A stretch of 64,000 nt of DNA, from contig NZ_CP054916.1 of assembly GCF_013364155.1 (NCBI RefSeq), positions 4,523,001 through 4,587,000 on the forward strand. The letters run 5' to 3'. Positions 47,842 to 58,293 of this stretch are shown piece by piece. Position numbers and translations under genes: made by a program. This DNA is from Streptomyces sp. NA02950 (GTDB lineage Bacteria; Actinomycetota; Actinomycetes; Streptomycetales; Streptomycetaceae). The notes beneath the pieces were generated by a model. The model was not told where the DNA came from. It did no database searches and saw only the letters and a program-made list of their open reading frames with translations. Within the stretch, counting starts at the first letter, position 1; every line of letters begins with the position of its first letter.

Positions 47842-47913
47842 ATCGAGTAGGAGGGACGGGTCGCCCGTCCCTCCTCTCACACCACCGGACATGCGGGCCA
47901 CGCATCCGGCGGT
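47842..47913 (-). ncRNA. Group II intron domains V and VI
   Basis: Domain V (47913-47881, minus) folds as a 9-bp lower stem with a CGC catalytic triad whose middle G pairs with U. A 2-nt bulge (UG) and a 4-bp upper stem follow, 33 nt in total. Domain VI (47880-47842) is a 12-bp stem AGGAGGGACGGG/CCCGTCCCTCCT followed by an unpaired A (47848, the branch point) and a GAG/CTC clamp. The A is 6 nt from the 3' end. Both domains start directly after the maturase stop codon. Confidence 0.85.
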
Positions 47914-49329
47914 TCATCCAGCTGATCTCAACCGTTGCCAGGTCGGCTTGAGCGTGCGCAGACCAAGATCGTCCCAGTAGGCATTGGGCAGTGCCCGCGC
48001 AAGGACGGGAGACCCCGCGACCCGCCAGTAGCCCTTGCTGGTGCCTCCCCATTCACGGGAGAGCCGCTCGCTGATGCCGAGCTTTCGCAGCATGGCCTGG
48101 CGCGTCCTGGGACGCTTCCATTCCTTCCAGCGGATCTGCCGCATCCTGCGGCGGAACCACTCGTCCAGGTCCCGGAACGCCCTGGAGGCATCCGAGATCC
48201 GGAAGTAGCCCATCCACCCGGTCATGAACCGGTCGATCTTCGCGATCCGTTCGTCCATCGCGATGCTCCACCGGCGTGAGGTCAGCTCCCGGATCTTCGC
48301 CTTCCAGCGCGCCAGCGCCTTCGGGTCAATCCGGATCCTGACCCCGTTCCGGGTGAAGTAGAAGCCGAACCCCAGCAGCATGGCGGCGGACGCTCGGACA
48401 ACTCTTGACTTCTCCCGGTTGACCTTCAGTTTCAACCGCTGCTCGACCACGGCCGTGACCGAGGCAAGCACCCTGTGGGCGGCCCGTTCGCTCCGCACGA
48501 AGACGCGCACATCGTCGGCGTAACGCACGAACCGGTGACCGCGCCTGAACAGCTCCCGGTCCAGGTCGTCGAGCATGACGTTCGACAAGACGGGCGAAAG
48601 CGGCGACCCCTGCGGGGTTCCCTCCGCACTCGGCATCTTCACGCCGTCCACCATGATCCCGGCTTCCAGGTACCTGCGGATCAACTTCAAGACCCTGCGG
48701 TCACTGACTTTCCGCGCGACCCGCGCCATCAGGACATCGTGCTGAACCCGGTCGAAGAACCGGTCCAGATCAAGGTCCACGACCCACCGGTGGCCGTCCT
48801 CGATCGCCCGCCTCGCGACCCTGACCGCCTGATGAGCGGACCGGCCGGGACGGAACCCGAAGGACGACCCCGAAAACTGCGGGTCGAAAACGGGCACGAG
48901 CACTTGCGCGATAGCCTGCTGGATCAAGCGGTCCAGCACCCGCGGCACCCCCAGCATCCGCTCACCGCCGCCAGGCTTCGGGATGATCACCTGACGGACC
49001 GGCGCCGGCCGGTAAGTGCCCGCATCGAGCTCAGCCCGGACAACGGGCCAGTGCACCAGCAACCACGGACGAAGCTCCGCCGTGGTCATCCCGTCCACCC
49101 CGGGAGCCCCCCGGTTCGCTTCGACGCGGTTGAGCGCCGCGAGCAGGTTCTCCTTCGAGAGCATCAACTCCCACAAGGCGGGTTCCTGTTCGCGGTGAAC
49201 GTCTTCCGTGAGACGCGCCGACCGGACACTACGCTCCGCCAGGACATCGCCGGAATGCACCGGTCCCTCCCCGGACGGCACCACTGACGCGGACTTGCTG
49301 CGGTCATCGTGCCCGGCACGAGCAGACAT
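47914..49329 (-). CDS. ltrA: Group II intron reverse transcriptase/maturase
   Basis: The ATG at 49329 (MSARAGHDDRSKS...) gives 471 residues; the frame is open to a GTG at 49377. Reverse-transcriptase blocks are complete: NRGAPGVDGMT, VIIPKPGGGERMLGVP, FGFRPGRSAHQAV, DLDLDRFFDRVQHD, GTPQGSPLSPVLSN, and the catalytic FVRYADDVRVFV. The maturase X domain follows (WMGYFRISDASRAFRDLDEW, RRRMRQIRWKEWKRP). There is no C-terminal HNH endonuclease, so mobility would use existing breaks or replication forks. The gene itself is intact even though the intron RNA is split upstream. Confidence 0.93.
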   Translation of the reverse strand: MSARAGHDDRSKSASVVPSGEGPVHSGDVLAERSVRSARLTEDVHREQEPALWELMLSKENLLAALNRVEANRGAPGVDGMTTAELRPWLLVHWPVVRAELDAGTYRPAPVRQVIIPKPGGGERMLGVPRVLDRLIQQAIAQVLVPVFDPQFSGSSFGFRPGRSAHQAVRVARRAIEDGHRWVVDLDLDRFFDRVQHDVLMARVARKVSDRRVLKLIRRYLEAGIMVDGVKMPSAEGTPQGSPLSPVLSNVMLDDLDRELFRRGHRFVRYADDVRVFVRSERAAHRVLASVTAVVEQRLKLKVNREKSRVVRASAAMLLGFGFYFTRNGVRIRIDPKALARWKAKIRELTSRRWSIAMDERIAKIDRFMTGWMGYFRISDASRAFRDLDEWFRRRMRQIRWKEWKRPRTRQAMLRKLGISERLSREWGGTSKGYWRVAGSPVLARALPNAYWDDLGLRTLKPTWQRLRSAG

Positions 49330-49706
49330 CACATCACCCGTTCCACTCGATGTTCGGCCCTTCCCAGCCCGCCGCACTCACGGCCACCCCGGCTGGTACT
49401 ACGACCTCTGCTGACTTCTGCCCGGTCAGCCCGCACCTTCCAGTGCGGACCGTCGGCGCGGCGGCACCTCAGCACAACCGACACCCGGACAGACCTCCCC
49501 GGATAAGAACGATCACTGTCCCTGGACCGCTGCCGCGTTTACGCACTGGCCTTCTTGGCAGTGACGGGCTTCACCCTCGTCGGCGGGCTCACCCGACCAG
49601 CACGCCTCATACACGGTTCGTGTTCCTCAGTGCCCAGGTCTCGCCTCGGGCTTCCTCCCGACCCCACCTCACGATGACGCCGTTGCCTCCGGCTCGGGGT
49701 TACCGG

Positions 49707-51236
49707 TAGTTCGTTAAATCCGGCGGTAGAGGTCAATGCCGTGTCCGGTGGTGACCGCGTCGATCAGGGCCTGGAGCTCTGAGGGTGGGTCTGTGTCCGT
49801 CCAGGCTCGCCACCACCGGGTGAGGGTGATGGCGGGGGTGAGCCAGGACCGGATGGCCCGTAAGGCCCTGGGCCAGCAGGGCTGTTGGGGCTGGTGGGGT
49901 TCGGTTGATCCCCCTCTCTGGCCCGTCGTCGGGGCATGGGTCCGGCGCGGTGGCATCCAGGGGTCCCGGTGGGGCGAACCACTGGTCCCAGCAGAAGGAG
50001 AAGGCGCAGTTGACCAGGGTCTGGTGGCGGCGGATGGCGCGGTCGGAGCGGACTTGGAAGTCGGCCCAGCCGAGTTCGTCCTTGATCTGTTTGTAGCTCT
50101 GCTCGATCCAGGGCCGCAGTCCGTAGAGGTGGACGATCTCGGCGAGGCCCGCCGGCGGGTGCGGGCCGGTGGCAGCGTGGGGTGTGTCGGGGTGGGGCAG
50201 GCTGGTGGCCAGGTACCAGGTGGCCTTCTCCGGCAGGCTGCCCGGATCGGTGGTGGCCACGACCAGCCGGCAGGGAGAGTCGGGGCCGTAGCCGCCCAGG
50301 CGGGCATCAGCCGCCCACCAGGTCTCGGTGTGCCCGTCACGGAAGTGACGTTCCACGGGCATCCAGTCGCCTGGATGCCTGGCATCGCGCCAGGCCAGTG
50401 AGTGTGCGGCTTCGATGGGGGTGTGCGGCTGGTCGGCCGGAGCCCAGGTGCCGCGGTGCGGCTTGAGCGCGACCACGTAGGCCAGGCCGGCCTCGCGCAG
50501 TGCGAGGTACCAGTCGTCGCTGACCGAGTAGGCGCAGTCGGCGACCACCGCCCGGCAGCCGAAGCCGGCCTCCTTCCCTCGGGCCGCGAGGGCAGCGGCC
50601 AGCTGTGGTTTCGTGCGGAAGTCCGGGTCGGAGCGGCTGCGGGTGAAGTGGTGGGCGGGGGTGTAGGGAGCCGCGTGCAGCGGGTAGTACACACGGCCGT
50701 CGGTCCACACCGTGGTCACCGTGACGATGCCGTTGTCCGTCTTGCCGTACCGGCCCAGCCACTGTCGGCCCACGTGCGCGGTGGCCGTGCCGTCCTTACG
50801 GTCCCCGGAATCGTCGATCACGATGACCCCGCCGTCGTGCGGAGCCGTCGCCGACTGCTCACGCAGCAGCTCAAGCCGCCGGTCGTTGACCTGCTCGGCC
50901 TCCCAAGGGGACTCGGACAGGAAGAACTGCAGCCGCTGCACCCCCGCCGTCCCCGCACCCGCCACCGGCTCCGCCCCTGCCAGGCATGTGATCGTCTTGT
51001 TCCGCTCCCGTGGTGCCAGCAGTCCCGTCAGGTACTCGCGAAACCCCCGCCGCTGAGCCAGACTGAAGAAGAGGTCGTCGAACCGCGCCGCATAGTCCTC
51101 CAACGGCCCCGGCGCAGGCGGACACGGACGGCGAGCGGTCATCTTCAGCCCCCAGCCAGGTAGTTGACTCCTACCACCGGCCTACGACCAACCCGGCCTG
51201 CCGTCAACCCGCACCACCGCCGGATTTAACGAACTA
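49707..51236 (-). mobile_element. IS701-family insertion sequence, copy 1 (1530 bp)
   Basis: The ends are perfect inverted repeats of 20 or more bp beginning TAGTTCGTTAAATCCGGCGG. The outer flanks of the copy 1-copy 2 block both read CCGG, and the palindrome TACCGGTA can be read across each junction, so the target duplication is 4 bp (up to 8 if the terminal TA is counted as target). The element is identical over its full length to copy 2 at 52412-53941 as far as line-by-line reading shows. Confidence 0.88.
49733..51142 (-). CDS. IS701-family transposase, copy 1
   Basis: The product has 469 residues. It is a DDE transposase of the IS701 type: GGVIVIDDSGDRKDGTATAHVGRQWLG holds the first Asp region, FGCRAVVADCAYSVSDDWYLAL the second, and LRPWIEQSYKQIKDELGWADF the Glu with the conserved YKQIKDELGWADF motif. 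Start to stop fits inside the inverted repeats (26 bp inside the left end). No frameshift is seen, so it should be functional. Confidence 0.92.
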   Translation of the reverse strand: MTARRPCPPAPGPLEDYAARFDDLFFSLAQRRGFREYLTGLLAPRERNKTITCLAGAEPVAGAGTAGVQRLQFFLSESPWEAEQVNDRRLELLREQSATAPHDGGVIVIDDSGDRKDGTATAHVGRQWLGRYGKTDNGIVTVTTVWTDGRVYYPLHAAPYTPAHHFTRSRSDPDFRTKPQLAAALAARGKEAGFGCRAVVADCAYSVSDDWYLALREAGLAYVVALKPHRGTWAPADQPHTPIEAAHSLAWRDARHPGDWMPVERHFRDGHTETWWAADARLGGYGPDSPCRLVVATTDPGSLPEKATWYLATSLPHPDTPHAATGPHPPAGLAEIVHLYGLRPWIEQSYKQIKDELGWADFQVRSDRAIRRHQTLVNCAFSFCWDQWFAPPGPLDATAPDPCPDDGPERGINRTPPAPTALLAQGLTGHPVLAHPRHHPHPVVASLDGHRPTLRAPGPDRRGHHRTRH

Positions 51237-51306
51237 CCGTTACTGAGGTTGAACTCGTGGTGTCGTAGGGGCTGACGGCTCGTCGTCTGTGCGGTATCAC
51301 CAGGAC

Positions 51307-51801
51307 ATGCGGTATCCACAAGGGGGCGGGCTGACCGCCGAACGGCAGCAGTTCCGCGAGGAGTTACGGCTGAAGGCGGCTGAGAGGTTCGCCCAGGGTG
51401 AGGCGAGCTCGGTGATCGCCAAGGACTTGCGCGTCAGCGTCCGCTCGGTACAGCGGTGGCGGCAGGTGTGGGACGAGGGCGGTCCGCGGGCTCTGCGGTC
51501 GCAGGGGCCGGCGTCGCTGCCGCGACTGAGCGATAAGCAGTTCGCCCAGTTGGAGGCAGAGCTGGCCAAAGGGGCGGCCGCTCACGGCTGGGAAGACCAG
51601 CGGTGGACCCTGAGCCGCGTGAAGACGGTGATCGGCCGCCGCTTCCACCTGACCTACACGGTCCAGGGCGTGCGCAAGCTGCTGGTCCGTAACGGATGGT
51701 CCTGCCAGGTCCCGGCCCGACGGGCGATGGAGCGGGACGACGATGCGGTGGCCGGGTGGGTCAAGGAGGTGTGGCCCTGCGCGGAAGGCTCGCGGCGGTG
51801 A
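51307..51801 (+). CDS. IS630 transposase, upstream frame (OrfA)
   Basis: The ATG at 51307 gives 164 residues; an upstream GTG at 51289 is possible. It carries the N-terminal DNA-binding part: helix-turn-helix AERFAQGEASSVIAKDLRVS with VRSVQRWRQVW, then a second winged helix (WTLSRVKTVIGRRFHLTYTV). It contains a TTA codon (51364). The reading continues in the -1 frame from about 51770-51800 into OrfB, so the full enzyme needs programmed frameshifting or coupled translation. Confidence 0.85.
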   Translation: MRYPQGGGLTAERQQFREELRLKAAERFAQGEASSVIAKDLRVSVRSVQRWRQVWDEGGPRALRSQGPASLPRLSDKQFAQLEAELAKGAAAHGWEDQRWTLSRVKTVIGRRFHLTYTVQGVRKLLVRNGWSCQVPARRAMERDDDAVAGWVKEVWPCAEGSRR

Positions 51802-52373
51802 GTGGAGCCTGGCTGGTCTTTGAGGACGAAGCCGGATTCTCCATGACGCCGCCGCAGGCGAAAACCTGGTCCCAGCGCGGCCGGACCCCGGTGGTGCGGG
51901 TCCGCGGCCGTTCGCGCAGACGGATATCGATCGCTGCGCTGACCTGCTACAAACCCGGCCACCGGTCCCGGCTGATCTACCGGCCGCGCCGGGACGACGG
52001 CCCGCGCGACGGACGCAAAAGCTTCTCCTGGCGCGAGTACCGGGACCTGCTGATCGCCGCCCACCAGCAGCTCGGCGGCCCGATCGTTCTCGTCTGGGAC
52101 AACCTGAACGTCCACAAAGCCGCCGACCTGCGGGAATGGGCGGCAGTCCGGGACTGGCTGACCATTTACTACCTGCCGCCCTACGCACCCGACCTCAACC
52201 CCGTCGAAGGGATCTGGTCACTGCTGCGGCGCGGTTGGCTTTCCAACGTCGCCTTCAGCACTCCCGAACACCTCGTCCACCGCATCCGACGCGGCTTACG
52301 GCACATCCAGTACCGCAGCGACCTCATAGACGGCTGCCTCGCCGAGACCGGCCTGACCATCCGACCCGCCTGA
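51798..52373 (+). CDS. IS630 transposase, downstream frame (OrfB, DDE domain)
   Basis: The product has 191 residues counted from the GTG that overlaps the OrfA stop (GTGA). The catalytic triad is visible: Asp in LVFEDEAGFSM, Asp in IVLVWDNLNVH, and Glu in LPPYAPDLNPVEGIWSLLRR. It corresponds to the C-terminal half of an IS630 DDE transposase. The overlap with OrfA in a -1 frame is the usual two-frame arrangement of this family and not a chance mutation. Confidence 0.87.
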   Translation: MSGAWLVFEDEAGFSMTPPQAKTWSQRGRTPVVRVRGRSRRRISIAALTCYKPGHRSRLIYRPRRDDGPRDGRKSFSWREYRDLLIAAHQQLGGPIVLVWDNLNVHKAADLREWAAVRDWLTIYYLPPYAPDLNPVEGIWSLLRRGWLSNVAFSTPEHLVHRIRRGLRHIQYRSDLIDGCLAETGLTIRPA

Positions 52374-52411
52374 GCACCCCAGCGACATCACGAGTTCAAC
52401 CTCAGTAGCGG

Positions 52412-53941
52412 TAGTTCGTTAAATCCGGCGGTAGAGGTCAATGCCGTGTCCGGTGGTGACCGCGTCGATCAGGGCCTGGAGCTCTGAGGGTGGGTCTGTG
52501 TCCGTCCAGGCTCGCCACCACCGGGTGAGGGTGATGGCGGGGGTGAGCCAGGACCGGATGGCCCGTAAGGCCCTGGGCCAGCAGGGCTGTTGGGGCTGGT
52601 GGGGTTCGGTTGATCCCCCTCTCTGGCCCGTCGTCGGGGCATGGGTCCGGCGCGGTGGCATCCAGGGGTCCCGGTGGGGCGAACCACTGGTCCCAGCAGA
52701 AGGAGAAGGCGCAGTTGACCAGGGTCTGGTGGCGGCGGATGGCGCGGTCGGAGCGGACTTGGAAGTCGGCCCAGCCGAGTTCGTCCTTGATCTGTTTGTA
52801 GCTCTGCTCGATCCAGGGCCGCAGTCCGTAGAGGTGGACGATCTCGGCGAGGCCCGCCGGCGGGTGCGGGCCGGTGGCAGCGTGGGGTGTGTCGGGGTGG
52901 GGCAGGCTGGTGGCCAGGTACCAGGTGGCCTTCTCCGGCAGGCTGCCCGGATCGGTGGTGGCCACGACCAGCCGGCAGGGAGAGTCGGGGCCGTAGCCGC
53001 CCAGGCGGGCATCAGCCGCCCACCAGGTCTCGGTGTGCCCGTCACGGAAGTGACGTTCCACGGGCATCCAGTCGCCTGGATGCCTGGCATCGCGCCAGGC
53101 CAGTGAGTGTGCGGCTTCGATGGGGGTGTGCGGCTGGTCGGCCGGAGCCCAGGTGCCGCGGTGCGGCTTGAGCGCGACCACGTAGGCCAGGCCGGCCTCG
53201 CGCAGTGCGAGGTACCAGTCGTCGCTGACCGAGTAGGCGCAGTCGGCGACCACCGCCCGGCAGCCGAAGCCGGCCTCCTTCCCTCGGGCCGCGAGGGCAG
53301 CGGCCAGCTGTGGTTTCGTGCGGAAGTCCGGGTCGGAGCGGCTGCGGGTGAAGTGGTGGGCGGGGGTGTAGGGAGCCGCGTGCAGCGGGTAGTACACACG
53401 GCCGTCGGTCCACACCGTGGTCACCGTGACGATGCCGTTGTCCGTCTTGCCGTACCGGCCCAGCCACTGTCGGCCCACGTGCGCGGTGGCCGTGCCGTCC
53501 TTACGGTCCCCGGAATCGTCGATCACGATGACCCCGCCGTCGTGCGGAGCCGTCGCCGACTGCTCACGCAGCAGCTCAAGCCGCCGGTCGTTGACCTGCT
53601 CGGCCTCCCAAGGGGACTCGGACAGGAAGAACTGCAGCCGCTGCACCCCCGCCGTCCCCGCACCCGCCACCGGCTCCGCCCCTGCCAGGCATGTGATCGT
53701 CTTGTTCCGCTCCCGTGGTGCCAGCAGTCCCGTCAGGTACTCGCGAAACCCCCGCCGCTGAGCCAGACTGAAGAAGAGGTCGTCGAACCGCGCCGCATAG
53801 TCCTCCAACGGCCCCGGCGCAGGCGGACACGGACGGCGAGCGGTCATCTTCAGCCCCCAGCCAGGTAGTTGACTCCTACCACCGGCCTACGACCAACCCG
53901 GCCTGCCGTCAACCCGCACCACCGCCGGATTTAACGAACTA
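52412..53941 (-). mobile_element. IS701-family insertion sequence, copy 2 (1530 bp)
   Basis: This is a direct copy of 49707-51236, with the same length, orientation and inverted repeats (offset exactly 2705 bp). Its right end abuts CCGGTAGCACC of the intron, the other side of the target duplication seen at the left end of copy 1. Confidence 0.88.
52438..53847 (-). CDS. IS701-family transposase, copy 2
   Basis: The 469-residue product is identical in sequence to the transposase at 49733-51142, with all DDE motifs intact (VIDDSGDRKDG, VVADCAYS, YKQIKDELGWADF). Two intact identical copies mean a very recent duplication. Together they could mobilise everything between them, which here is only the IS630 element. 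Confidence 0.92.
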   Translation of the reverse strand: MTARRPCPPAPGPLEDYAARFDDLFFSLAQRRGFREYLTGLLAPRERNKTITCLAGAEPVAGAGTAGVQRLQFFLSESPWEAEQVNDRRLELLREQSATAPHDGGVIVIDDSGDRKDGTATAHVGRQWLGRYGKTDNGIVTVTTVWTDGRVYYPLHAAPYTPAHHFTRSRSDPDFRTKPQLAAALAARGKEAGFGCRAVVADCAYSVSDDWYLALREAGLAYVVALKPHRGTWAPADQPHTPIEAAHSLAWRDARHPGDWMPVERHFRDGHTETWWAADARLGGYGPDSPCRLVVATTDPGSLPEKATWYLATSLPHPDTPHAATGPHPPAGLAEIVHLYGLRPWIEQSYKQIKDELGWADFQVRSDRAIRRHQTLVNCAFSFCWDQWFAPPGPLDATAPDPCPDDGPERGINRTPPAPTALLAQGLTGHPVLAHPRHHPHPVVASLDGHRPTLRAPGPDRRGHHRTRH

Positions 53942-54058
53942 CCGGTAGCACCACCTCTTCCCCCAGGGGACTTCCACCCCCAAGCAATCGCCCATGCCGG
54001 GCATACCAACAAGGGCCTCCCCACCTGGGGAGGCCCTTCGGTCCTTCCGTCAGCACAC

Positions 54059-55384: not shown

Positions 55385-56476
55385 ATGGGACCTTCCACCC
55401 CACGAACCCGACGGGCCGCGGTACCGGGTCAGCGCACCGCCGACACGGCCTTTCAGCCACTTGCGGACGAATCCCTGGCCAGCTGGATCAACGCCATGGC
55501 ACGGCACTCGGGCGTGGAAACCCGGGCACTCCTAAGAGAGTTTCAGCTCAGCCGGGACGGCGCGTTGACCATGGCTCAGACCAGGCTCTCCGAGCAGTCC
55601 GTACGTCGCCTGAGCAGAAAAACGGGTATCAGCGAGGCCGTCCTCCATGGCATGACTCTCGCCCGCTACGCGGGCAATGCCCTGCCGCACCTGCCGGTCT
55701 CCCCTTGGGTTGACGGTGCGGCCGTCCGGCAGTGGAGCTCGTCCGCCTGGCTTATGGACCACGAGGCCCGCTGGTGTGCACGGTGCCTGCGTGAGGACGA
55801 CATGCGCTGGCCGCTGCGCTGGATGCTCCCCTGGAACTTCGCCTGTCTCCGGCATCGCGTCTACATGGCCACCGAGTGCGTCCGCTGTCTGTCCCCGGTG
55901 CGCTTCGGCCGACACCTCTCGCTCGACCGCTCCTGCGATGCCCGAGTGGAAGACGCACGGCGCAGGTACGGGCACGACGGGCCCTGCGCATATCCGATCA
56001 CTATGCACCGTCCACTGCCTGTCAGCGATGAAGCGGTGCTCGGGCTGCAGACGAGAATCAGCACATGGCTCGACGGAAGCGCGACCGTCGACGACAGACA
56101 GCTCGTTTCCCTGACCGCGGTCATGATCATGCTGGTGACGCCCGTCATGCTCCGCCGCAGCGGAGAGGACCCGGCGCTGCTGTGCAATCTGCGGTCGCGC
56201 CGGTATGTAGGCCGGATGGCGGAACGAAGACTGTGGGCCGACCCGCTGAGGGTTGCCGCGGCCGCCTCAGTGGCACAACGGGTACTGAGCAGCCGCCCCT
56301 CAGCCGCCGAAGTAGCCAGGCATGTGGCGGATCTCCGGTCTCTGGACTACCGCGATGCCCCGTGGCGACTGGACGTCATGGAGTGGGCCTACGGGGCGGC
56401 CTTGCGGCCGAATCCCTACGTGGAGGAGTTGGTGCGCCAGGGAGTGATCACGATCGGGTCGTACAAGCAGGCCTGA
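55385..56476 (+). CDS. TniQ-family protein (orphan)
   Basis: The product has 363 residues, with AGGATC upstream of the ATG. The TniQ pattern is clear: DESLASWINAMARHSGVETR near the start, SRKTGISEAVLHGMTLARY, then a zinc-finger-like stretch at about 130-170 with WCARCLREDD, WNFACLRHRVYM and CVRC. TniQ/TnsD proteins choose target sites for Tn7-like and Tn5053-like transposons. Here no TnsA/B/C, TniA/B or Cas gene is within the window, so this is an orphan: a remnant or a repurposed DNA-binding protein. Confidence 0.8.
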   Translation: MGPSTPRTRRAAVPGQRTADTAFQPLADESLASWINAMARHSGVETRALLREFQLSRDGALTMAQTRLSEQSVRRLSRKTGISEAVLHGMTLARYAGNALPHLPVSPWVDGAAVRQWSSSAWLMDHEARWCARCLREDDMRWPLRWMLPWNFACLRHRVYMATECVRCLSPVRFGRHLSLDRSCDARVEDARRRYGHDGPCAYPITMHRPLPVSDEAVLGLQTRISTWLDGSATVDDRQLVSLTAVMIMLVTPVMLRRSGEDPALLCNLRSRRYVGRMAERRLWADPLRVAAAASVAQRVLSSRPSAAEVARHVADLRSLDYRDAPWRLDVMEWAYGAALRPNPYVEELVRQGVITIGSYKQA

Positions 56477-56700: not shown

Positions 56701-56946
56701 CCAGCCATGCGACACTGCGTAGCGCTTCTGCTGCTCCGCTCCCGCCTGGTCGGGCATGTGACGTCCGGGACCTGAGCTCAACCTGAACGCCGCCGCGTCC
56801 TCTGGATGAGCACCGTGCTCGCTGTACGGGGCACGACTCAGATTCCTTCCCGCCCCATGGAACGTGATCGGGGTGTTCGGGGGGTGACTCAGTACGATGG
56901 GCTGGCTAACTGTCCGGGCTCCACGGTTCGGGCGGAGGGAGACGGG

Positions 56947-57345
56947 GTGAGAGATCAGGGACGGCAGGACCCGCGACCGCGCCGCCGCGGCCAGGGAGAG
57001 TTGGAAGCGCAGGTGCTGGGGGCGCTGTGGGAGGCGCCGGGCCCGGTCGCGGCCGTGTGGGTGCAGGAACGGCTCGGCGGAGATCTCGCTTATACGACAG
57101 TGATGACCATCCTCTCCCGGTTGCACGTCAAGAAGGCCGTGACCCGTGAACGAGTCGGCCGTTCGTTCCTGTGGCAAGCCGCGTCGGACGAGGCAGGGAT
57201 GGCCGCCTCGCGGATGCATCGCGTCCTGGACGGACAGAACGATCGGGAAGCCGTACTGGCGAGCTTCTTCACCACTCTGACTCCGGAGGACGAGCGACTC
57301 GTGCGTGATCTGCTGGGCGATGCGAAGGCCGATCCGAAGGACTGA
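56947..57345 (+). CDS. BlaI/MecI/CopY-family repressor
   Basis: The GTG at 56947 has GGAGGGAG just upstream and gives 132 residues; the frame extends to 56806 but is not coding there. The winged helix is GELEAQVLGALWEAPGPVAA followed by VWVQERLGGDLAYTTVMTIL and SRLHVKKAVTRERVGRSFLW. It lies 3 bp before an M56 protease gene, the classical repressor/sensor-protease pair. In the known pairs, sensing leads to cleavage of the repressor. No beta-lactamase gene is nearby, so its targets are open; the ter-region dyads 2.4-5.1 kb away are one candidate. Confidence 0.88.
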   Translation: MRDQGRQDPRPRRRGQGELEAQVLGALWEAPGPVAAVWVQERLGGDLAYTTVMTILSRLHVKKAVTRERVGRSFLWQAASDEAGMAASRMHRVLDGQNDREAVLASFFTTLTPEDERLVRDLLGDAKADPKD

Positions 57346-57348
57346 CCG

Positions 57349-58293
57349 ATGGGCATCTTCGTCTTTCTGCCGCTCGTCCTGCCCTTAACAGCGCTGCCGA
57401 TCGCCCGCTTGGCGGAGCTGCACTTGCACCCCCGAAGCGCTACCCGGCTGCTGACGGCCGTCGGCGGCGTGCTCGCTCTGTGCAGCACGCTGTGCCTGAT
57501 GCTGCTGGTGGTCGTCGGCACCGCGCAGCTCCCGGGGAACCCGCTGCCGGACGGGTGGTCGGACCCGGAGGTGCGCGCCGCGGTGCCCTACGACGAGGTC
57601 GCGGGGAAGTCTGCCATCGGGGCCCTGGCCGTCGTGGGTGCCACGTGCGGAGCGTTGTTGCGGAGGCATTTTCGGGTACGGCGGGAGGCTCACCGCGCGC
57701 TGTCCGGCATGCCGGACGCGCCCGTGGCAGTTCTCCCCGATACCCGGGTGTACGCCTACGCGCTTCCTGGCGGCGCCCATACCGGGGGTGTGCCGGGACG
57801 GATCGTGGTCTCCAAAGCGATGCTGGCCTGTCTGGATTCCGGGGAGCGCGCGGCGTTGATCGCCCATGAGCGGGCTCACCTCCTCGCGCGCCACCACCGC
57901 CATCTGCTGCTGGCGCAGCTGGCGGCGCGGGCCAATCCGTTGCTGGTCCCCTTGCGGGATGCGGTGGCGTACAGCGCTGAGCGCTGGGCGGACGAGGAGG
58001 CGGCGCTGGCGGTCGGCGACCGGAAAGCCGTGGCGCGTGCCGTCGGCAAGGCCGCACTGGTGTCGCACGGCACGCCGGTGGCGACGCTGCTGGGGTTCGC
58101 CGTGCCGGGGCCGGTGCCCCGGCGGGTGGCTGCCCTGCTCGGCCCTGTGCCGCCCAGCGGGTGGCCGCCGGTGTTCACGGCGGTGGGTCTTGCGGCCTGG
58201 ACGGCGGCGGCCGGTACGGCGGCCTCCGCCTTCTCGTCCGCGAACGCGGCGGTCGCGCTGTTCGTCGTCCTGGCGGCGGCGACCCCGCTCTGA
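57349..58293 (+). CDS. M56-family (BlaR1/HtpX-like) membrane metallopeptidase
   Basis: The product has 314 residues with membrane helices near residues 1-20, 34-58, 84-104 and at the C-terminus. The zinc motif is H173-E-R-A-H177 in LIAHERAHLLARHHRHL, followed by ERWADEEAAL, which supplies the third ligand. There is no penicillin-binding sensor domain, unlike BlaR1. The gene contains a TTA codon at 57385-57387 (codon 13), so the protease may be made only when bldA tRNA is available. It is cotranscribed with the BlaI-type gene. Confidence 0.87.
   Translation: MGIFVFLPLVLPLTALPIARLAELHLHPRSATRLLTAVGGVLALCSTLCLMLLVVVGTAQLPGNPLPDGWSDPEVRAAVPYDEVAGKSAIGALAVVGATCGALLRRHFRVRREAHRALSGMPDAPVAVLPDTRVYAYALPGGAHTGGVPGRIVVSKAMLACLDSGERAALIAHERAHLLARHHRHLLLAQLAARANPLLVPLRDAVAYSAERWADEEAALAVGDRKAVARAVGKAALVSHGTPVATLLGFAVPGPVPRRVAALLGPVPPSGWPPVFTAVGLAAWTAAAGTAASAFSSANAAVALFVVLAAATPL

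Follow-up and report, generated by a model that had tools for sequence, protein, structure and literature searches.

Interruption of a group IIC intron by an IS630 element with IS701 copies at both ends points to a Streptomyces IS701 group that probably targets IS630-family termini

How did a group II intron come to be split by three insertion sequences (ISs) of two families, and in which order did these arrive? The question is raised by an intron on the minus strand of a 64,000-nt stretch of Streptomyces sp. NA02950 (positions 4,523,001–4,587,000 of contig 1, NZ_CP054916.1; genome of 9.77 Mb in two contigs), hereafter the window. That mobile elements are nested in a group II intron whose maturase is intact had already been described in the initial annotation, and this description was supported, as were the position of the interruption in domain I and its make-up of one IS630 and a pair of identical IS701 copies. 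Very probably, the intron, which is of type IIC, was hit by IS630 and afterwards received IS701 at both IS630 ends, the IS701 group concerned being one that targets the ends of IS630-family elements. The intron and the elements within it were delimited as follows:

47842..54006, minus strand: group II (IIC-type) intron, interrupted; delimited by the shared boundaries of seven copies, intact length 1,920 nt
49700..49703: outer 4-bp duplication TTAC of the left IS701, read from the junction
49704..51239, minus strand: left IS701 copy, 1,536 nt, with terminal inverted repeats and a transposase gene at 49733-51142 (NF033540, 384.6 bits, cut-off 150)
51240..51243: inner 4-bp duplication TTAC of the left IS701; IS630 starts at its last base
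51241..51242: left TA flank (duplication) of IS630; a single TA in intact intron copies
51243..52405, plus strand: IS630 (NF033545), 1,163 nt, placed by length and ends, terminal inverted repeat CTGAGGTTGAACTCG
51289-51801 and 51696-52373, plus strand: overlapping open reading frames (ORFs) 1 and 2 of IS630
52405..52408: inner 4-bp duplication GTAG of the right IS701; IS630 ends at its first base
52406..52407: right TA flank (duplication) of IS630; a single TA in intact intron copies
52409..53944, minus strand: right IS701 copy, without any difference from the left copy by sequence comparison
53945..53948: outer 4-bp duplication GTAG of the right IS701, read from the junction

The order of insertion was read from the other copies of the intron. 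Seven copies are present in the genome, six of them uninterrupted; five of the six are identical over 1,920 nt and the sixth carries one base difference. The window pieces (58 and 1,858 nt) together with CTAA likewise add up to 1,920 nt, identical to the five intact copies and one base off the sixth. At the broken site the intact copies have GGTGC-TA-ACCCC and read AGGTGGTGCTAACCCCGAGC, and the correct join of the intron is GGTGCTAACCCC, in place of the rejoined domain I sequence GGTGCTACCGGTAACCCC proposed earlier. Read on the plus strand, TTAC...TTAC encloses the left IS701, GTAG...GTAG the right one, and TA...TA the IS630 between them. Removal of both IS701 copies, with one duplication each, leaves T-TA-[IS630]-TA-G, and removal of IS630 with one TA leaves TTAG, which is the intact site. 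Since stepwise removal restores this site, the intact copies show that IS630 entered domain I first, duplicating TA, and that the IS701 copies came later. Each 4-bp duplication covers the outermost IS630 base, the TA and the next base, and the junctions mark the two identical IS701 copies as separate insertions, one per IS630 end and each with its own duplication.

Assignment to the IS701 family follows from the transposase (NF033540) and the 4-bp duplications. The target of the family is known as YTAR/CTAG. The IS701 copies of this genome have GTAN/NTAC at IS630 ends in 15 of 15 cases, so that a YTAR/CTAG target was not found; such a target is a habit and no family hallmark, and membership rests on the transposase. 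For IS630, the TA duplication was seen in the interrupted intron (two TA, against one in the intact copies) and likewise at one further locus (L039 against L207; loci are given L numbers throughout). ORF2 matched NF033545 with 104.7 bits (cut-off 100) and PF13358 (DDE_3), and ORF1 matched with 66.7 bits, below the cut-off. The transposase is split between the two ORFs, which overlap at 51696-51801 with a -1 shift of frame from ORF1 to ORF2, and is probably made by frameshifting.

The pairing recurs throughout the genome. Fifteen elements (30 ends) were obtained with the IS701 terminal repeats, and six elements without mismatch with the IS630 repeats, next to three more single matches (2 mismatches) that remained unpaired; a family search with DDE_3 gave six full IS630 matches and two partial ones, one of these below the cut-off. 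All six full-length IS630 copies carry IS701 at both ends. Twelve of the 15 IS701 copies sit on an IS630 end, and the other three follow such a copy in tandem and have a 4-bp duplication as well; exact 4-bp duplications were found in 12 of the 15. For a chance insertion at any GTAN/NTAC, at the density in the window, the probability of hitting one of the 12 IS630 ends was p ~1.5e-4. An empty site in a related genome was recovered for L039, where L207 aligns without gap across the junction (~30 nt, one mismatch) with CTAA, the site predicted if one TA is kept; L208 and L209 have CTAT there. The search covered the five loci of this genome other than that of the window; the flanks are mostly repeated, and L039 alone gave a spanning match.

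For comparison with other genomes, 392 genomes of the genus were scanned, IS701 ends being found in 37 (that of strain NA02950 included), and all listed places outside this genome were fetched; 79 named loci from a species collection and 13 plasmid-record loci (one place per record) were added. Ends were detected with fixed mismatch limits, whereby very divergent ends were dropped. Seventy-five elements were reduced to 67 by merging eight duplicates, and four plasmid elements brought the total to 71 unique elements with both ends, namely 15 from strain NA02950, 52 others of at least 75% identity and four more distant ones. Among the 52, 19 lie on IS630-type ends, 22 are solitary with flanks of the form NTAC...GTAN, one lies on an IS701-like end and ten fit neither class. 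Exact 4-bp duplications accompany 14 of the 19 on IS630 ends, and an IS630 ORF, in some cases partial, was detected beside 17 (L074 and L146 were assigned by end motif only). These partners are diverse, ranging from >90% down to ~34% protein identity to the window IS630. Where the far IS630 end was found (ten partners), TA was adjacent in 10/10 and a second IS701 in 0/10. The more distant L147 (69%) also abuts an IS630 end.

Plasmid records were examined after the rule had been formed. Four new, distinct members with both ends were obtained, of which three lie on IS630 ends (L246, L249 and L250) and one is a footprint (L248); the 4-mers of L246 are unequal. Left out were L247, which duplicates L246, L251, which was already part of the genus scan, and seven elements that were cut or too distant or did not show both ends.

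The 22 solitary copies have the form NTAC|IS701|GTAN, in 20 cases YTAC...GTAR, and these flanks resemble what an IS630 would leave: a TA to either side, IS701 bordered by C and G, and mostly a YTAR site upon removal. One such copy (L077, 1-4000) lies inside an array of clustered regularly interspaced short palindromic repeats (CRISPR), in which 34 of the 38 ordinary repeat units are 61 nt long. At 1,602 nt (1,537 + 61 + 4), the unit that holds IS701 shows a net gain of the element plus 4 nt, which fits a YTAR empty site. The IS701 of L078, on an IS630 end, and that of L079, solitary and in the same genome, are identical in 1536/1536 positions, and thus one element makes both kinds.

A tree was calculated from 48 of the 79 named loci, hand-chosen for length or a readable end, together with the window. 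With support, 29 rows cluster as the IS701 group, and a neighbouring set of six Streptomyces IS701s has CTAG or CTAT at the readable ends.

Several observations weigh against a general targeting of IS630 ends. Unequal duplications were flagged in five of the 19 copies on IS630-type ends, in one of them (L138) only through a contig end. Of the ten copies that fit neither class, four (L089, L119, L120 and L151) have ordinary 4-bp duplications and no IS neighbour, the tree placing L151 outside the group, and six are irregular. Some distant relatives (L144, L155, L159, L183, L188 and L257) also have TAC/GTA-type ends, and the border of the IS701 group, as drawn from these sequences, is not sharp. 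Empty sites for solitary copies were sought with three of eight joined sites in 382 genomes and gave no junction-spanning match (10 of the 382 had a match with E of at most 1e-20, two source genomes among them). Within strain NA02950 itself, the inner base differs from the outer one in three of the 12 IS701 copies next to IS630 (L035 left and both of L037). At L037 the outer bases are C..A and the inner T..G, which fits a later inversion of the IS630 segment between inverted IS701s; gene conversion from the window locus is a possible alternative, because L037 and the window locus have an IS630 single-nucleotide polymorphism (SNP) in common. At L035 left, with outer T and inner G, the IS701 carries a SNP otherwise present only in L036, which suggests an origin by recombination. 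Given the ten outliers among 52 and the unequal duplications, the apparent preference of IS701 for IS630 ends is strong, not absolute.

The best reading is thus that a Streptomyces IS701 group would target IS630 termini without breaking them and often end up in the place of IS630. In the window, IS630 jumped into a TA of intron domain I, and IS701 was then inserted independently at each IS630 end with 4 bp duplicated. Through this duplication the full IS630 end and the TA are rebuilt and the ends of the host transposon stay intact, so that insertion is repeatable at the same place. The IS701 transposase would recognise the IS630 terminus itself. An IS701 on one IS630 end may then attack the other end as its preferred target, delete IS630 and replace it, which would yield the solitary YTAC...GTAR form, and such replacement is the origin that we favour for the solitary copies. 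A fuller proposal is put forward tentatively, with slightly more doubt than confidence: the group would be specialised on diverse IS630 termini, recognising either the end or the bound IS630 transposase, inserting harmlessly and swapping into the place of IS630, with most copies on IS630s or on former IS630 sites.

Two other origins of the solitary copies were weighed against replacement, in addition to an open-frame test of the solitary sites, which was noisy. Homologous recombination between two IS701s flanking one IS630 would predict the flanks YTAC|IS701|GTAR exactly, and two-sided composites, from which it could start, are present in strain NA02950; we nevertheless regard it as unlikely. 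None of the ten IS630s with a far end found outside this genome carries IS701 at both ends. Moreover, about half of all two-sided composites would be inverted and unable to collapse, and such collapse is rendered less likely because no inverted two-sided composite occurs among the fetched loci from elsewhere, despite an even insertion orientation (21 ends, 11 toward and 10 away). Mobilisation in trans by the IS630 transposase, which would treat C-IS701-G as an IS630-like element and duplicate TA, is similarly doubtful. It would account for the IS630 signature of the flanks (duplicated TA, terminal C and G, YTAR sites for the most part), and the unequal 4-mers in L099, L128 and L246 would follow from joint movement of IS701 and IS630; against it, a likeness between the end sequences of IS701 and IS630 was not demonstrated.

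For the two-sided loci, replacement aside, the idea was considered that a composite transposon, IS701-IS630-IS701, moves as a unit without any targeting of ends. The six composites share the same 2,705-nt spacing, every IS630 having both IS701s, and L037 has the inner T..G and the IS630 SNP of the window, but outer bases C..A. The relative orientation of IS701 and IS630 varies among the loci, and the composites are therefore not one copied unit; the inner base equals the outer base in nine of 12 cases, and elsewhere single IS701s are found on one end of many different IS630s. If the outer IS701s had moved the composite, equal outer duplications would be expected, whereas the left and right 4-mers differ at 6/6 loci of this genome. 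As a general explanation, movement as a unit is thus improbable, and some composite copies may have moved in this way.

An entry of IS701 into the intron at a CCGG target, with tandem duplication of IS701 and subsequent insertion of IS630 into the 4-bp spacer, as first proposed for the locus from the identical IS701 pair in the same orientation and the CCGG at both outer borders, is hardly credible: the uninterrupted copies read GGTGCTAACCCC without CCGG, which on one side is made up of C, the last duplication base, followed by CGG, the start of IS701, and on the other side of the mirror image of these, each IS701 carries its own duplication (TTAC/TTAC and GTAG/GTAG), the flanking IS701s are in opposite orientation at 3/6 loci of this genome (L036, L037 and L039), and the left and right outer 4-mers differ at all six. 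Two further candidates were tried and rejected. If IS701 had come first and IS630 had entered its flank, IS701 should adjoin, on its outer side, the other target base (TTAG-like), but C is present there. If the IS701 next to IS630 had CCGG ends and a TA duplication, the IS630-proximal base would be C/G, and it mostly follows the outer base.

Two side observations concern the surroundings of IS701 copies. A recurrent trio was noted, in which a second IS630-type transposase gene adjoins IS701 with its 3′ end, always at the same distance (...GAGGAAnnnAGCA-YTAC|IS701), with junctions at 3903 in L128, 3921 in L147, 3000 in L246/L247 and 1468 in L157, the last with an IS701-similar end; in L128, L147 and L246 an IS630 end lies on the opposite side, and the 4-mer there is unequal. 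At L035, the right flank from 8540 onward matches many places in related genomes and is probably another IS.

With the order of insertion settled in this way, the intron itself was characterised by the following features:

47914..49377, minus strand: reverse transcriptase/maturase, 487 aa, intact; PF00078 (RVT_1), PF08388 (GIIM) and TIGR04416
49357..49452, minus strand: intron core, Rfam group-II-D1D4-1, 61.6 bits (gathering 35)
49508..49678, minus strand: intron core, Rfam group-II-D1D4-3, 126.9 bits (gathering 32)
54011..54038, minus strand: terminator-like hairpin, within the 5′ exon and directly before the intron, read by eye; fold of 54004-54056 with a minimum free energy of -30.9 and z -3.8

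The 3′ end of the intron (...CGAT) lies at 47842 and the 5′ end (GTATG) at 54006, the latter uncertain by a few nt. In the seven copies the common sequence starts at about GGTATG (54007 ± a few bases), and the sequence farther upstream is copy-specific. Group IIC introns usually start with GTGYG (GUGYG in the RNA), and the choice of the first base of GTATG at 54006, to within a few nt, was guided by this consensus; by the shared boundary the intron would start GTATG or GGTATG. The GTGTG at 54058 that had been taken as the 5′ end thus falls into the upstream exon, and the total of about 1.98 kb gives way to the 1,920 nt of the intact copies. What had been said of a group II intron on the minus strand, of its intact maturase and of a domain V/VI ending at 47842 held, the maturase reaching 398 bits with TIGR04416 (cut-off 300) besides RVT_1 and GIIM. 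Its nearest solved relative is the GsI-IIC reverse transcriptase (6ar1, 506 bits).

In the intact copy L032, domain V/VI was matched by RF00029 (Intron_gpII) with 39.0 bits (E 1.5e-5), just below the gathering score of 40, and the Rfam search of the window gave no match to RF00029 at the gathering score. The fold of the domain V/VI stretch had z -6.8, and that of domain I gave no signal (z 0.06). All seven copies are preceded by a GC-rich terminator-like hairpin, read by eye (three of the seven were folded), the sequence of which differs from copy to copy; the one in the window was not picked by a consensus terminator scan. Group IIC introns reportedly insert after terminator hairpins. From its maturase, the domain V/VI at the 3′ end and the insertion behind a hairpin, the intron is, by sequence, of group IIC. 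With known group IIC introns such as GsI-IIC it shares the type of maturase, the insertion past terminator-like hairpins and the 3′ domain V/VI; it differs in that the window copy is split in domain I and, with the boundary as placed here, in a probable start at GTATG in place of GTGYG. The intact copy L032 (1900-2293) was seen to lie directly downstream of a transfer-messenger RNA (tmRNA) gene and the tmRNA hairpin.

The insert in domain I, 4,241 nt of IS DNA and 4 further nt, makes splicing unlikely, and the broken window intron most likely no longer splices. Seven maturase copies, 100% identical, were found in the genome (the eighth match of the search was a distant reverse transcriptase, 34%), and next to those of the six other copies the window maturase would be redundant. 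A role of this maturase only in trans is possible and would add little, because the six uninterrupted copies encode the identical 487-aa protein.

End preferences are also known for IS231A in Tn4430 ends and for IS30 in IS30-like ends, which belong to different families. IS4321/IS5075 of the IS1111 group insert into the terminal inverted repeats of Tn21-type transposons as a “safe harbour” (PMC8269217). The IS701 group resembles IS4321/IS5075 as an IS that prefers the end of another transposon, and differs from them in transposase family and hosts (the Tn3 family there, IS630 ends here) and in that the 4-bp duplication rebuilds the end of the host element. A preference for transposon ends is already known from IS4321/IS5075. 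Searches of the open-licence literature on IS701 together with IS630 or with the IS701 target turned up no report of the pairing, and none of a Streptomyces group II intron interrupted by an IS was found there. ISGka1/2 of the IS701 family make repeats of 4-9 bp (PMC8024623). With the IS701 family as defined by NF033540, the present group shares the transposase and the 4-bp duplication; several distant relatives are flanked by CTAG, whereas this group is mostly found at GTAN next to an IS630 end and not at a free YTAR/CTAG.

By this pairing, an apparently random pile-up of mobile elements becomes a rule, in which one family lands on the ends of another. It offers a tractable system for a DDE transposase that chooses a transposon end as its target, and sheds light on the nested IS islands of Streptomyces, which should not be taken for tandem duplications or composite transposons.

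Among the neighbouring genes, one for a TniQ-domain protein lies near the intron (55385-56476, plus strand). At 56806-58293 a gene for a BlaI-type repressor is followed by an ORF that, judged by eye, resembles a membrane metallopeptidase.

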